DNA of 64,000 nt. Source: Buchnera aphidicola str. Ua (Uroleucon ambrosiae) (GTDB taxonomy: Bacteria; Pseudomonadota; Gammaproteobacteria; Enterobacterales; Enterobacteriaceae). This document shows positions 3,570 to 61,278 of this stretch, piece by piece. The stretch lies in the NCBI RefSeq assembly GCF_000225465.1, contig NC_017259.1:310001-374000 (forward strand), read 5' to 3'. The translations under genes were made by a program, and so were the position numbers. Position 1 is the first letter of the stretch. Every line of letters starts with the position of its first letter. The notes below the pieces were generated by a model. It did no database searches. It was not told the origin of the DNA and saw only the letters and a program-made list of their open reading frames with translations.

Positions 3570-4801
3570 ATGAATTTTTTACCTTTTTTTATTGCAAGAA
3601 AAATATATTTTAAAGAAAAAACAAATTATACAATATTTTTTATTACTATATTATCTAGGATAGGTATATTTATTAGTGTATTTGCATTAATGATGAGTTT
3701 TAGTGCATTAAATGGTTTTCAAAAACTATTAAATCAAACAATCTTATCAACTATACCTCATGCAATTATAACATTTACTAATCAATCTAATCTAACTTGG
3801 AAAGATACAATAAAAAAAATAAATACTATTACAGATGTTTCTTATGCTGAACCATACATTTTAATTAACGGATTACTAACTTTTAATAACAAACTTAAAA
3901 CAGTCGAAATCAAAAGTTTTAGTAATATTGAATATTTAAAAAAAAATTTTATTTCTCTTAATCAAGATAATATTTTTATAAAAAAAAAAATATAAATAAA
4001 ATTATTATTTCATCTTATTTATCAAATCATTTATCAATTAAAATAGGTGATTCAATTAATTTAATTTTTTTAAATCAAGATAATAGTTTTAATATTCAAA
4101 TTAAATATTTTTCTTTTAAAATTGTAAATATATTTAAATCTAATGGAGTATTAGATTCAAATATTGTATATATTCCATTTGATTTTTTTAAAGAATATTT
4201 TAAAATTAGTAATAAAATTGATAGTATTGAATTACATATAGATCATCCATTAAATGTAGATATAGTCATAAAAAATATTTTAAAAAAAATACATACTCCT
4301 CTTCTTGTGTATACCTGGATTAACAATTATCAATCTATATATCATGATATCCAAAAAACTAAAACAATTGTTTATATAATTCTTTCATTACTAGTAATCA
4401 TTTCATGTTTTAGTATTGCATCTATTTCTTTAATGACGATATCTAAAAAAACACGAGATATTGCTATTTTACGTAGTATGGGTGCTAATAATTTAATGAT
4501 TCAACTAATTTTTTTATGTTACGGTTTACGTTCTATTTTTATTGGAACTTTTATAGGTTTATCTTTAAGTGTAATCATTATCTCACATTACAAAAAAATA
4601 ATGTTTTTTTTAGAAAAACAATTTAAAGGAAATATTTTATTAGATAATATTTATTATAATCATTTCTTTCTTTTACAAATAAATTTATTAGATGTAATTA
4701 ATATATTTATTAGTACTATAATCATAGGAATTATAACAAATTGGTATCCAGCATATTATGCTTCAAAAATTAATCCTAGTAATATACTAAAAGAATATTA
4801 A
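3570..4801 (+). pseudogene. lolE: LolE, lipoprotein-releasing transporter subunit, frameshifted in an A11 run
   Basis: Second membrane subunit of LolCDE. The ATG at 3570 follows a good Shine-Dalgarno (AAAAAGG, 3554-3560). Reading stops after 141 codons (stop 3993-3995), just past a run of 11 A (3980-3990). In the neighbouring frame the sequence is open from the A run to 4801, and the first residues, SSYLSNHLSIKIGDSINL, fit the periplasmic domain of LolC/LolE proteins. Adding one A (or removing two) restores one 410-residue frame, close to the 414 of E. coli LolE. The N-terminal membrane anchor is in the first piece and the three C-terminal membrane segments in the second. The break could be a real mutation, could be masked by transcriptional slippage, or could be a homopolymer sequencing error. 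Confidence 0.9.
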
Positions 4802-4843
4802 TTACATATTTCAAAAATAATTTCTTTTTAAAATGGTGAAAAT

Positions 4844-5848
4844 ATGGCTATTAAAGTTGGTATTAATGGATTCGGTCGTATTGGACGTGTATTATTTAGA
4901 CTGGCTCAAAAACGTTTAGGTATTGATATCGTAGCTATTAATGATTTATTAAGTCCTGAATATATTGCTTATATGTTAAAATATGATTCAACACATGGTG
5001 TGTTTGAAAAAAATATTGAAGTAATAAATAATAATATTGTTATCAACAATAAAAAAATTCGTATTACATCAATCAAAGATCCTGAACAATTAATGTGGGG
5101 TGACTTAGATATTGATGTAGTAATTGAATCTACAGGTCTCTTTTTAACACATGAAAAAGCACATAAACATATTTTATCTGGAGCAAAAAAGGTAGTGATT
5201 ACAGGGCCTTCAAAAGATGATGTACCAATGTTTGTACGAGGTGCTAATTTTGATCAATATAAAGGAGAAAAAATTGTCTCTAATGCATCTTGTACAACCA
5301 ACTGCTTAGCTCCTTTATCTAAAGTAATAGATAATGAACTTGAAATTATTGAAGGATTAATGACAACAGTACATGCTAGTACAGCTACACAAAAAATTGT
5401 TGATGGCGCTTCTCAAAAAGATTGGAGAGGAGGTAGAGGGGCATTACAAAATATTATTCCTTCTTCTACAGGAGCTGCAATTGCTGTTGGTAAAGTTTTA
5501 CCAAACCTAAATGGTAAATTAACTGGTATAGCTTTTCGCGTTCCAGTATCCAACGTATCTGTAGTAGACTTAACCGTACGCTATAAAAAATCTGCTACAT
5601 ATCATGAAATATGTGAAATAATTAAAAAATCTTCTCAAGAAGATATGAAGGGAATTTTAGGATATACTGAAGATGAAGTTGTTTCTACAGATTTTAATGG
5701 TCAAGAATTAACTTCTATTTTTGATGCAAAAGCCAGTCTATCTTTAAATAATAATTTCGTTAAATTGATTTCTTGGTATGATAATGAAACTGGTTATTCT
5801 AGTAAAGTACTTGATTTAGTTTGCTTGATATCTGATATGAAAATATAA
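4844..5848 (+). CDS. gapA: Glyceraldehyde-3-phosphate dehydrogenase A
   Basis: Glycolytic enzyme converting glyceraldehyde 3-phosphate, NAD+ and phosphate into 1,3-bisphosphoglycerate. The 334 residues show the Rossmann motif NGFGRIGR at the N-terminus, the active-site motif SNASCTTNCLAP with nucleophile Cys150, the base His177 in TTVHASTATQK, and the C-terminal SWYDNETGYS. The start at 4844 gives MAIKVGINGFGRIGR, as in homologues. It is 42 bases downstream of lolE on the same strand, so it may be partly co-transcribed with lolCDE, though as a highly expressed gene elsewhere it probably has its own promoter. A long hairpin follows about 100 bases after the stop codon. Confidence 0.98.
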   Translation: MAIKVGINGFGRIGRVLFRLAQKRLGIDIVAINDLLSPEYIAYMLKYDSTHGVFEKNIEVINNNIVINNKKIRITSIKDPEQLMWGDLDIDVVIESTGLFLTHEKAHKHILSGAKKVVITGPSKDDVPMFVRGANFDQYKGEKIVSNASCTTNCLAPLSKVIDNELEIIEGLMTTVHASTATQKIVDGASQKDWRGGRGALQNIIPSSTGAAIAVGKVLPNLNGKLTGIAFRVPVSNVSVVDLTVRYKKSATYHEICEIIKKSSQEDMKGILGYTEDEVVSTDFNGQELTSIFDAKASLSLNNNFVKLISWYDNETGYSSKVLDLVCLISDMKI

Positions 5849-5946
5849 AATATAATCATATTTTTTGTAACATGATATAAATATACTTTTTTATTAAAAA
5901 TCATTAATTATATAATATATAAATTATTTTTATAGATTTTTAAAAA

Positions 5947-59321: not shown

Positions 59322-59564
59322 ATGCATAATATTGAAAAAAAAATTAAAAAAATAATTATTGAAAAACTTGATATAAAAGAAGAAGATATTTTTAATAATG
59401 CTTCATTTATCAATGATCTTGGTGCTGATTCTTTAGATACAGTGGAATTAATTATGGCTTTAGAAGAAGAATTTGATATTGAAATTTCAGATGAAGAAGC
59501 AGAAAAAATTAATACAATACAAGAAGCTATTAATTTTATTAAAAATTATCATTTAAAAAAATAA
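59322..59564 (+). CDS. acpP: Acyl carrier protein
   Basis: Carries growing acyl chains on 4'-phosphopantetheine attached to Ser37 in the motif LGADSLDTVELIMALEEEFDIEISD. The 80 residues compare with 78 in E. coli. It is strongly acidic except for the Lys-rich C-terminal NYHLKK. In E. coli fabF, pabC and mltG separate acpP from tmk; here only 105 bases do. Confidence 0.98.
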   Translation: MHNIEKKIKKIIIEKLDIKEEDIFNNASFINDLGADSLDTVELIMALEEEFDIEISDEEAEKINTIQEAINFIKNYHLKK

Positions 59565-59669
59565 ATATTTTTCTATATTTTTATAATATTAATCTTAATT
59601 TTATATATTTATTTAAAGAAAAATATCAAATAAAATAATAAATATTATCTTCATAAGTATTTAAAAAAC

Positions 59670-60308
59670 ATGATAAAAAATAAATTTATTGTAATTGAAG
59701 GATTAGAAGGTGCAGGAAAAACCCATGCATGTATATATATTAAAAATCTATTATATACAAAATATAATATTAAAAAGATATTATTAGTACGTCAACCAGG
59801 TAGTACAAAAATTTCAGAAATAATAAGAAAATTAATAAAAAAAAAATATTCAGAAAATCTGACTAAAGAAACAGAATTATTATTAATGTATGCTGCGCGG
59901 ATTCAATTAATTAAAACAAAAATCAAACCTGCATTAAAAAAAGGAATATGGGTTATTTCAGATCGTCATGATTTATCTTCATTAGCTTATCAAGGAGGTG
60001 GATTAGGCATTAAAAAAGTAATAATTAATCAATTAAAATTATTATTTTTAAATAATTTTACTCCAGATTTCACTGTATATTTAGATGTTTGTCCAAAAAT
60101 TGGTTTAAAAAGAGCGTTAAAAAGAAATTCGCTAGATGCAATTGAAAGTAGATCTTTAGAATTTTTTACAAGAACTAGAAAAACTTATTTAAAATATATT
60201 AAATTAGATAAAAAAAGTATAACTATTAATGCAAATGAAAATTTGCAGATAGTCAATAAAAATATTAAAAAAAATATATCAATTTGGTTAAAAAAACAAT
60301 ATATATGA
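59670..60308 (+). CDS. tmk: Thymidylate kinase
   Basis: Phosphorylates dTMP to dTDP. The 212 residues (213 in E. coli) have P-loop EGLEGAGKT (10-18), the DRX motif in VISDRHDLSSLAYQGGG, and substrate-binding LLVRQPGST. The stop codon overlaps the start codon of holB in ATGA (60305-60308), a typical translational coupling that preserves the E. coli tmk-holB order. Confidence 0.96.
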   Translation: MIKNKFIVIEGLEGAGKTHACIYIKNLLYTKYNIKKILLVRQPGSTKISEIIRKLIKKKYSENLTKETELLLMYAARIQLIKTKIKPALKKGIWVISDRHDLSSLAYQGGGLGIKKVIINQLKLLFLNNFTPDFTVYLDVCPKIGLKRALKRNSLDAIESRSLEFFTRTRKTYLKYIKLDKKSITINANENLQIVNKNIKKNISIWLKKQYI

Positions 60309-61278
60309 AATTATATCCATGGTTAATAGAACCTTATAAGAATATTATACAACAACATAAAAAAAAAAAGCGCACCATGCAATTTTAATCAAAACCCAAC
60401 GAGGTGTAGGAGCATCTTTGTTAATTTTGTTTATTAGTAAATGGTTATTATGTCTTAAACCAAAGGGAACAAAGTTTTGTAATGAGTGTCATGGATGTAA
60501 ATTAATGTCTTCTAATAATCATCCTGATTGGCATAACTGCATTAATCAAAAAAATACAATTTGTAATATAGATACTATACGTTTAATTAATAAAAAAATA
60601 TTTGAATGTTCACAACAAGGTGGACGAAAAATCATTTTTTTATCAGATATTGAAAAATTAACAGAATCAGCAGTAAATGCATTTTTAAAAACTTTAGAAG
60701 AACCACCAAAAAATACTTGGTTTTTTCTTATTGATTACAGTAATTTAAATTATTTTTATACATTAAATAGTCGCTGTTTAATTTATAAATTATTTGTTCC
60801 ATCAGAAAAACATAGTTTAAATTGGTTAAAACAAGAGCATATAAAAAAAAATAGATCATGTTTAACTGCATTGCGTATTCATCAAGGATCGCCTTTATCC
60901 GCCAAAAAATTTATTAATAGTAGCATATGGATAGAACGAACATTTTTTTTTAAATTATTAGATTCTGCTTTTAAAGATTATAATTTATTAAAAATACTAC
61001 CTATATTAAAAGAAAAAAATACTATTATGAAAATTGATTGGCTATGTTTATTATTATTTGATGCTATTAAATTTAATATTGATCAAAAAAAATATTTAAT
61101 TAATTTTGATCAAATAAAATTTATTCAATTTCTTTCTTATCGTTATACACATATGATTTTAGATTTCAGTATACGAACTTGGATGCGTTGTAAAAATAGA
61201 TTACTAAAAATACCTGGAATTAATCACGAATTATTATTGTTAGAACAATTACTTCAATGGGAAATAATTTTAAAATAA
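60305..61278 (+). pseudogene. holB: HolB, DNA polymerase III delta-prime subunit, frameshifted in an A11 run
   Basis: Clamp-loader subunit of DNA polymerase III. The first frame (ATG 60305, overlapping tmk) gives MKLYPWLIEPYKNIIQQHKKKK, which matches the E. coli start MRWYPWLRPDFEKL, then leaves frame and stops at 60388. After a run of 11 A (60359-60369) another frame reads AHHAILIKTQRGVGASLL (E. coli GHHALLIQALPGMGDDAL) and runs to 61278. With one extra A the protein has 324 residues (334 in E. coli), and the zinc ligands fall exactly at Cys50, Cys59, Cys62 and Cys65 as in E. coli. EEPPKNTWFFL and C-terminal features are intact. It may be rescued by slippage. Confidence 0.92.

Follow-up and report, generated by a model that had tools for sequence, protein, structure and literature searches.

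Single frame breaks at long poly(A) runs recur across Buchnera genomes in genes that are probably still working

In the 64,000-nucleotide stretch of Buchnera aphidicola str. Ua (Uroleucon ambrosiae) analysed here, the genes lolE, tsaB, fabD and holB each lose their reading frame within a long run of adenines, which raises the question of whether they are dead or are still read as whole proteins. The window, by which we mean this entire stretch, spans positions 310001-374000 of a 615,380-base contig in an assembly of three contigs and 627,953 bases (genome G000), published as a 615,380-base chromosome and two plasmids (PMC3164680). We favour, with a probability of roughly 0.74, the reading that all four genes still work, that a long A run is the sole interruption of their frame and that transcriptional slippage would restore it. 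RNA polymerase would slip on runs of about 9-13 A, the slipping would create a message pool of mixed run lengths in which a fraction codes for the full protein, and from about 10 A onwards the genomic frame would matter less, so that a few lysine-rich sites could gain or lose the right frame as their run length drifts. The simplest account is that the frame is corrected on the run, because poly(A) breaks arise again in separate genomes and conserved sequence follows most of them.

For comparison, syntenic stretches of 61-66 kilobases were taken from 35 Buchnera genomes (all those returned by a genus search), giving 36 genomes with G000. Their open frames fell into 72 clusters, of which 13 were discarded as antisense or spurious (one of these, at 33551-33769, may be a real small gene) and 59 were kept, each with an intact reference protein. 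Genes of at least 60 codons that were present in at least 12 genomes were compared by a frameshift-allowing dynamic-programming alignment of orthologous protein against DNA, for 2,098 gene-genome pairs. The relatives' stretches stop short of two long open frames of the window, 1-1176 and 62165-63598; the former and most of 62165-63962 lie outside the comparison, 62165-63598 being covered only for about its first 200 codons. The alignments returned 225 raw events, of which 107 fell under the support threshold and are excluded from every count, leaving 118 supported breaks in the 36 genomes. The gene at 7093-8532 is putatively phrB, from its place in the gene order. Clustering of the broken state was assessed by the number of changes, against 2,000 shuffles, on a FastTree tree of 7,673 columns from 19 intact proteins, in which a few inner nodes are weakly supported. 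Ratios of nonsynonymous to synonymous divergence (dN/dS) are pairwise Nei-Gojobori values before and behind each break, with 11 genome pairs providing a baseline from unbroken genes. The identities of the relatives are inferred: G002 is putatively Ak, G029 putatively A. pisum Tokyo, G001 putatively Sg and G008 the putative R. maidis Buchnera.

Exactly four well-supported breaks were found in the compared genes of G000, all in coding poly(A) on the forward strand and nowhere else in their genes: A11 in lolE, tsaB and holB, and A9 in fabD. The first part of lolE (3570-3995) matches the N-terminal part of the NCBIfam LolE profile and stops just past its A11 (3980-3990), a run that is also out of frame, as A10, in the sister genome G019. 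The second part (3971-4801) continues in another frame; it has a match in 36 of 36 genomes, and its G029 orthologue (L068) fits the LolE profile from position 141. In tsaB, the first part (35660-36019) scores above the TIGR03725 cut-off, the A11 lies at 35984-35994 and the second part, an open frame recovered by alignment, spans 35952-36326; the same shift is present in G000, G019 and the next relative, G014. The first part of fabD (57561-58013) ends in a TGA overlapping the ATG at 58010, and the second part (57986-58504) follows from an A9 (57984-57992) at which G024 is broken too, while eight others break roughly 12 codons later, in another A run. This fabD site is in frame in G019 and G014, so within this clade the break is confined to G000, where a single assembly supports it. 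Finally, a short first part of holB (60305-60388) is followed, through an A11 (60359-60369) that is out of frame in G019 as well, by the remainder of the gene in another frame (60361-61278). NCBIfam models also recognise the two fabD parts and the long holB part, with scores below the whole-protein cut-offs, as expected of parts. One further raw event, near the start of the gene at 27736-28452, fell under the support threshold, and one low-scoring G000 match (96 of 347 positions identical) may be a remnant.

A sequence-only reading of the window had placed all of its frame breaks in poly(A) runs and none elsewhere, and frameshift-aware alignment bears this out among the compared genes. It had also called the four breaks independent, a description in need of qualification, since those of lolE, tsaB and holB are held in common with G019, and that of tsaB with G014 as well. 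Its further description of a window-wide gene set, taken as a unit, was not supported, as the sites are unlike one another in age, in run length and in shift class.

The breaks depend steeply on run length. Within G000, 4 of 50 coding A runs of at least nine are broken, compared with 0 of 1,807 A or T runs of 4-8 (Fisher p = 4.6e-7); none of the four coding T runs of at least nine is broken, and three of the four coding A11 runs are. The fourth A11, at 12433-12443 on the forward strand within the gene at 12153-13337, is the in-frame counterpart to the three broken ones. Long homopolymer runs are also hot spots of replication error, and evenly spread indels are therefore a weak null, with the relatives and the selection test being more telling. 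Across the 36 genomes, 91 of the 118 supported breaks lie in single-break copies, including some close to the end of a gene (codon 252 in the gene at 16133-16945, tsaB codon ~200 and fabD codon ~314), and 71 of the 91 fall at runs of at least nine A, spread over 13 of the 59 genes. The fraction of coding A runs out of frame in single-break copies is 3/2,272 for A8, 15/1,097 for A9, 33/322 for A10, 19/64 for A11 and 4/10 for A12, while one coding A13 and one A17 are both in frame. Runs of at least ten A are out of frame in 56 of 398 cases. A runs are broken more often than T runs, at 71/1,495 versus 4/311 for lengths of at least nine (p = 0.003) and 56/398 versus 1/32 for lengths of at least ten (p = 0.10). 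As a separate observation, no coding A run in the genes compared across the 36 genomes is longer than the in-frame A17 of rsmC (38714-38730, forward strand), whose site is out of frame in G019 (A10) and G014 (A11).

The same sites are broken repeatedly. Of the 36 genomes, 9 have a lolE break at codons 127-142, a stretch with two neighbouring runs; breaks occur in tsaB at codon ~110 in 6 and at codon ~25 in 4; in fabD at codon 158 in 8 and at codon 146 in 2; and in holB in 2 of the 36. Broken copies number 8 of 35 for rsmC, 7 of 35 for ihfB and 13 of 30 for cmk (four genomes having no cmk and two multi-break copies being excluded). For the window genes, run length varies among genomes and in-frame states are common. 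The broken state clusters strongly on the tree (shuffle p ≤ 0.0005) for ihfB, fabD codon 158 and lolE with both runs pooled (p = 0.002 and 0.039 when the two are taken apart), and more weakly for holB, rsmC, tsaB codon 110 and cmk (p between 0.0175 and 0.039). Regarding cmk itself, neither G000 (19110-19600) nor its sister G019 has a match to the gene, and the next relative, G014, carries a copy with an A10 break; the broken state may have preceded loss of cmk in the G000/G019 lineage.

What lies behind the breaks speaks to whether the genes are still in use. The 71 single-break copies at runs of at least nine A comprise 19,648 aligned codons in total and contain zero internal stops more than 10 codons from an end. 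With both copies broken, dN/dS behind the break in the G000-G019 pair is 0.29 for holB, for which only 23 codons can be compared before the break, and 0.45 for lolE (0.42 before it). Other pairs broken in both copies give values behind the break of 0.14 (G003-G007) and 0.39 (G009-G022) for lolE; 0.35, 0.21 and 0.09 for cmk, rsmC and fabD in G011-G032; 0.24 and 0.30 for rsmC and fabD in G029-G002; and 0.15 for ihfB (G017-G033), 0.27 for phrB (G001-G008) and 0.30 for cmk (G006-G020). Unbroken genes of the 11 baseline pairs range from 0.14 to 0.30. Purifying selection behind the break is therefore present for holB, less strongly for G000-G019 lolE and more weakly for tsaB. Overall, the sequence behind the breaks appears to be mostly under purifying selection, and most of the broken genes are probably not dead.

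The direction of the shifts is likewise uneven. One added A in the RNA would restore 57 of the 71 breaks, with 14 of 71 in the other class (binomial p = 2.7e-7, for copies that are related by descent and not independent). This bias fits insertion-prone slippage, because insertion of one A is the commonest slip measured in Buchnera RNA: in PMC5574713, homopolymers held 151 of the 157 insertions and 16 of the 57 deletions, with insertions rising exponentially up to 11 nucleotides (the same paper elsewhere counts 70 deletions). A review puts the corrected fraction at 12-50% of the transcripts from genes carrying frameshifts in an aphid symbiont and an ant symbiont (PMC5009743).

The pattern extends to cell-wall genes outside the window. 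A murF match is present in 35 of 36 genomes (C1:229322-230571 in G000). A single A run, near codon 243, puts 29 of the 35 out of frame, the other six being in frame. The broken runs are A10-A14, with A9 in one genome, and 28 of the 29 are one A short with a single copy in the other class; downstream dN/dS is 0.07-0.28 (8 pairs). The gene is reported as frameshifted in Ua, Ak, Sg and two A. pisum strains and intact in one A. pisum strain (PMC3164680), and the state can therefore change within a species. For murC and murE, split copies and two murC references were aligned, the criterion for the remaining genomes being how long an open frame was matched. On this basis murC is broken at one A10-A13 site in ten genomes with a visible split (downstream dN/dS 0.17-0.29, 5 pairs), and murE in eight, five at one A9-A10 site (codon ~148) and three at single other sites of A10-A11 (downstream dN/dS 0.12-0.21, 2 pairs). 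Second events occur near the ends of four murF copies (codons 426-454) and three murC copies (codons 474-478). In G008, murC, murE and murF (L325, L337 and L302) are each broken once, at A10, with zero internal stops and both sides conserved. A 2022 study that removed frameshifted coding sequences describes most Aphidini Buchnera as lacking murC, murE and/or murF, and reports that the R. maidis Buchnera nevertheless builds a cell wall, for which compensating mechanisms were proposed (PMC9116674). If our reading is true, slippage on the split murC, murE and murF would account for the R. maidis wall without new enzymes.

Several observations weigh against transcriptional correction, and tsaB is the weakest of the four cases. 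The G000 tsaB break belongs to the other shift class, needing one A lost or two gained, which are rarer slips. Moreover, its second half evolves clearly faster than its first, with dN/dS behind versus before the break of 0.59 versus 0.20 in G000-G019 and 0.51 versus 0.24 in G000-G014. In G003-G007, where one copy is broken at that codon, the second half reaches 0.65, and this half may simply be fast or relaxed. Where one copy of a pair has a tsaB break near codon 30 (three pairs), the remainder of the gene is at 0.23-0.47, and tail pieces of 9 and 11 codons behind end-of-gene tsaB breaks give 1.9 and 1.7. The G000-G019 value for lolE is about twice the unbroken average, though equal to that of the part before the break, and fabD of G000 was measured only in a pair with one broken copy (0.34 behind, 0.23 before). 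Breaks at tsaB codon 25 and fabD codon 146 show no tree signal (shuffle p = 1), and clustering of phrB is borderline (p = 0.0525). The class bias could equally stem from DNA runs losing an A. Only one in seven or so of the runs of at least ten A is out of frame, and the frame is therefore not free. The sequence-only reading had proposed that slippage would be a routine part of expression; recurrence in separate genomes and conservation behind most breaks make it look routine in the genus, but tsaB, with its rarer slip and faster second half, does not fit so well. That the output of each gene would be set by how often slippage occurs, as the same reading proposed, is a conjecture.

We also entertain, more tentatively and with the odds somewhat against it, a stronger form of this idea, in which a small number of A10-A13 sites would be lasting decoding elements rather than accidents. 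At murF the one-A-short state, held by 28 of the 35 genomes with six in frame and one in the other class, would be what is normal for the genus, and lineages of lolE, cmk, rsmC, fabD, tsaB and ihfB would wander between frames with the protein under selection. Expression of genes for the cell wall, lipids, tRNA modification and replication would then require slippage, which might hold down their dose, and any gene list from which frameshifted genes are removed, such as one without murC, murE and murF of wall-making Buchnera, would understate the abilities of the symbiont.

The main rival places the correction in the ribosome, which would shift by -1 at A_AAA_AAA within the runs. This heptamer is a named ribosomal slippery sequence (PMC3711429), and a -1 step restores the same 57 of 71 breaks as one inserted A. 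However, the steep rise from A8 to A11 would suit a process sensitive to length past the seven bases that a ribosome needs, and transcript length variants have been measured in Buchnera (PMC5574713), leaving the ribosome an improbable agent. The evidence as a whole, including the excess of broken A over broken T runs, does not separate RNA polymerase from ribosome.

Slightly less probable still is that the broken copies are recent or ongoing pseudogenes, dispensable genes broken by replication slippage in which decay is not yet visible. Long runs are replication hot spots, and some broken genes do get lost: 4 of 36 genomes lack a cmk match, and decayed copies of this gene are present in G001, G008 and G010. 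Such breaks are commonly interpreted as recent inactivations (PMC3164680). The marks of a pseudogene, namely accumulating stops, further indels and dN/dS near 1, are nonetheless absent from the single-break copies. Many of their breaks are held in common by diverged sisters (synonymous divergence, dS, ~0.4), in most genes dN/dS behind the break is far lower than 1, and murF is broken in 29 of 35 genomes with conserved halves. Multi-break copies look different: the eight copies with at least two breaks contain 7, 0, 9, 13, 10, 2, 2 and 3 stops, or 46 in 7 of the 8 (at all positions, for copies chosen by their breaks). The dN/dS of such copies, measured for cmk only, is 1.19 in G001-G008 (0.57 before the first break) and 1.32 in G008-G010. 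A comparison of break positions, with 1 of 27 events in multi-break genes at runs of at least nine A versus 71 of 91 in single-break copies, was dropped as evidence, as the eight copies hold only one such run.

We consider it unlikely, a little more so than decay, that each part has its own round of translation, with re-initiation giving the second, and that the two cooperate as split proteins without frame correction. Re-initiation would be possible in fabD, in which the stop of part 1 overlaps the ATG of part 2 (ATGA, 58010-58013), and tsaB has an ATG at 36006 within the end of part 1. Conversely, the second part of lolE has no ATG, GTG or TTG before 4307, that of holB has no start before a TTG at 60418, and the tsaB ATG is not preserved in G014. 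The coexistence of in-frame and several out-of-frame states at one site also suits a product made as one chain.

Homopolymer errors in the assemblies are very unlikely to explain the breaks and were rejected as the whole story, since the breaks follow the tree at most sites. The Ua genome was assembled from 454 reads with a consensus corrected by Illumina (PMC3164680), and the fabD break of G000 is private, yet the putative R. maidis genome G008, polished with PacBio and Illumina reads (PMC6451198), shows breaks too. A protein search with the first part of tsaB, whose length window excluded full-length TsaB, returned seven proteins, four of them from genomes already in the set; a 94% identical protein on a 7,322-base contig outside the 36-genome set also stops just past the run, and its different end suggests one more A there. 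The objection that all four runs might be sequencing artefacts, raised in the sequence-only reading, is thus largely excluded for lolE, tsaB and holB, whose breaks are common to separate genomes; the fabD break is private to one assembly.

Least likely of all is that loss of the mismatch-repair gene mutS drives the breaks: mutS is absent from G000, as published for Ua (PMC3164680), but the idea was rejected on equal break rates with and without the gene, 36 of 243 runs of at least ten A being broken in 22 genomes with mutS (including a split copy in G003) and 20 of 155 in 14 without (10 having no match and 4 having remnants; Fisher p = 0.66; Mann-Whitney p = 0.38 for break counts). The G003 copy of mutS (G003:C1:468869-471203) falls into two open frames, one of 402 codons and one of 410.

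Transcriptional slippage at such runs has precedents. Tamas et al. (PNAS, 2008) reportedly described frameshifted poly(A) genes of Buchnera and Blochmannia that are rescued by transcriptional slippage. The present cases resemble those in having a single indel in coding poly(A), in a gene otherwise conserved and in the same genus, and differ in that 36 genomes are compared by run length, site, tree and selection, at the level of DNA. For Ua, eight homopolymeric frameshifts were reported, with slippage named as a possibility; in its treatment of them PMC3164680 scores such frameshifts as inactivations and leaves correction open, whereas we add the constraint behind the breaks and the broken state of murF in 29 of 35 genomes. 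Eight genes of Blochmannia vafer, including dnaX and dnaG, have poly(A) or poly(T) frameshifts and were treated as intact; one dnaX break is common to species, as here, but that is another genus and three genomes (PMC3017870). Elsewhere, poly(A)-frameshifted symbiont genes have been merged as functional (PMC3890641). In Thermus dnaX, slipping on an A9 similarly yields mixed messages, but its DNA reads full-length and the slip shortens the product, (PMC3711429, PMC1088944), while here the DNA is out of frame and is not known to give a second product.

The observation made by the sequence-only reading is thus true, in the main rightly interpreted and of a known kind. The slippage idea for such genes is already in print, and the genus-wide pattern appears to be new as far as our searches of the open-licence literature go, in which we found no genus-wide run-length curve and no paper on a Buchnera fabD frameshift (we do not claim absence from print). 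Its value lies in that pattern and in its bearing on symbiont gene lists. A list of apparent pseudogenes becomes a measurable rule, whereby a coding run of at least ten A in the compared region is out of frame about once in seven (56/398), without internal stops. Earlier work labels lolE of the A. pisum and S. graminum strains a pseudogene (PMC3246468); in our set it is broken in G029 and open in G001, the putative Sg genome.

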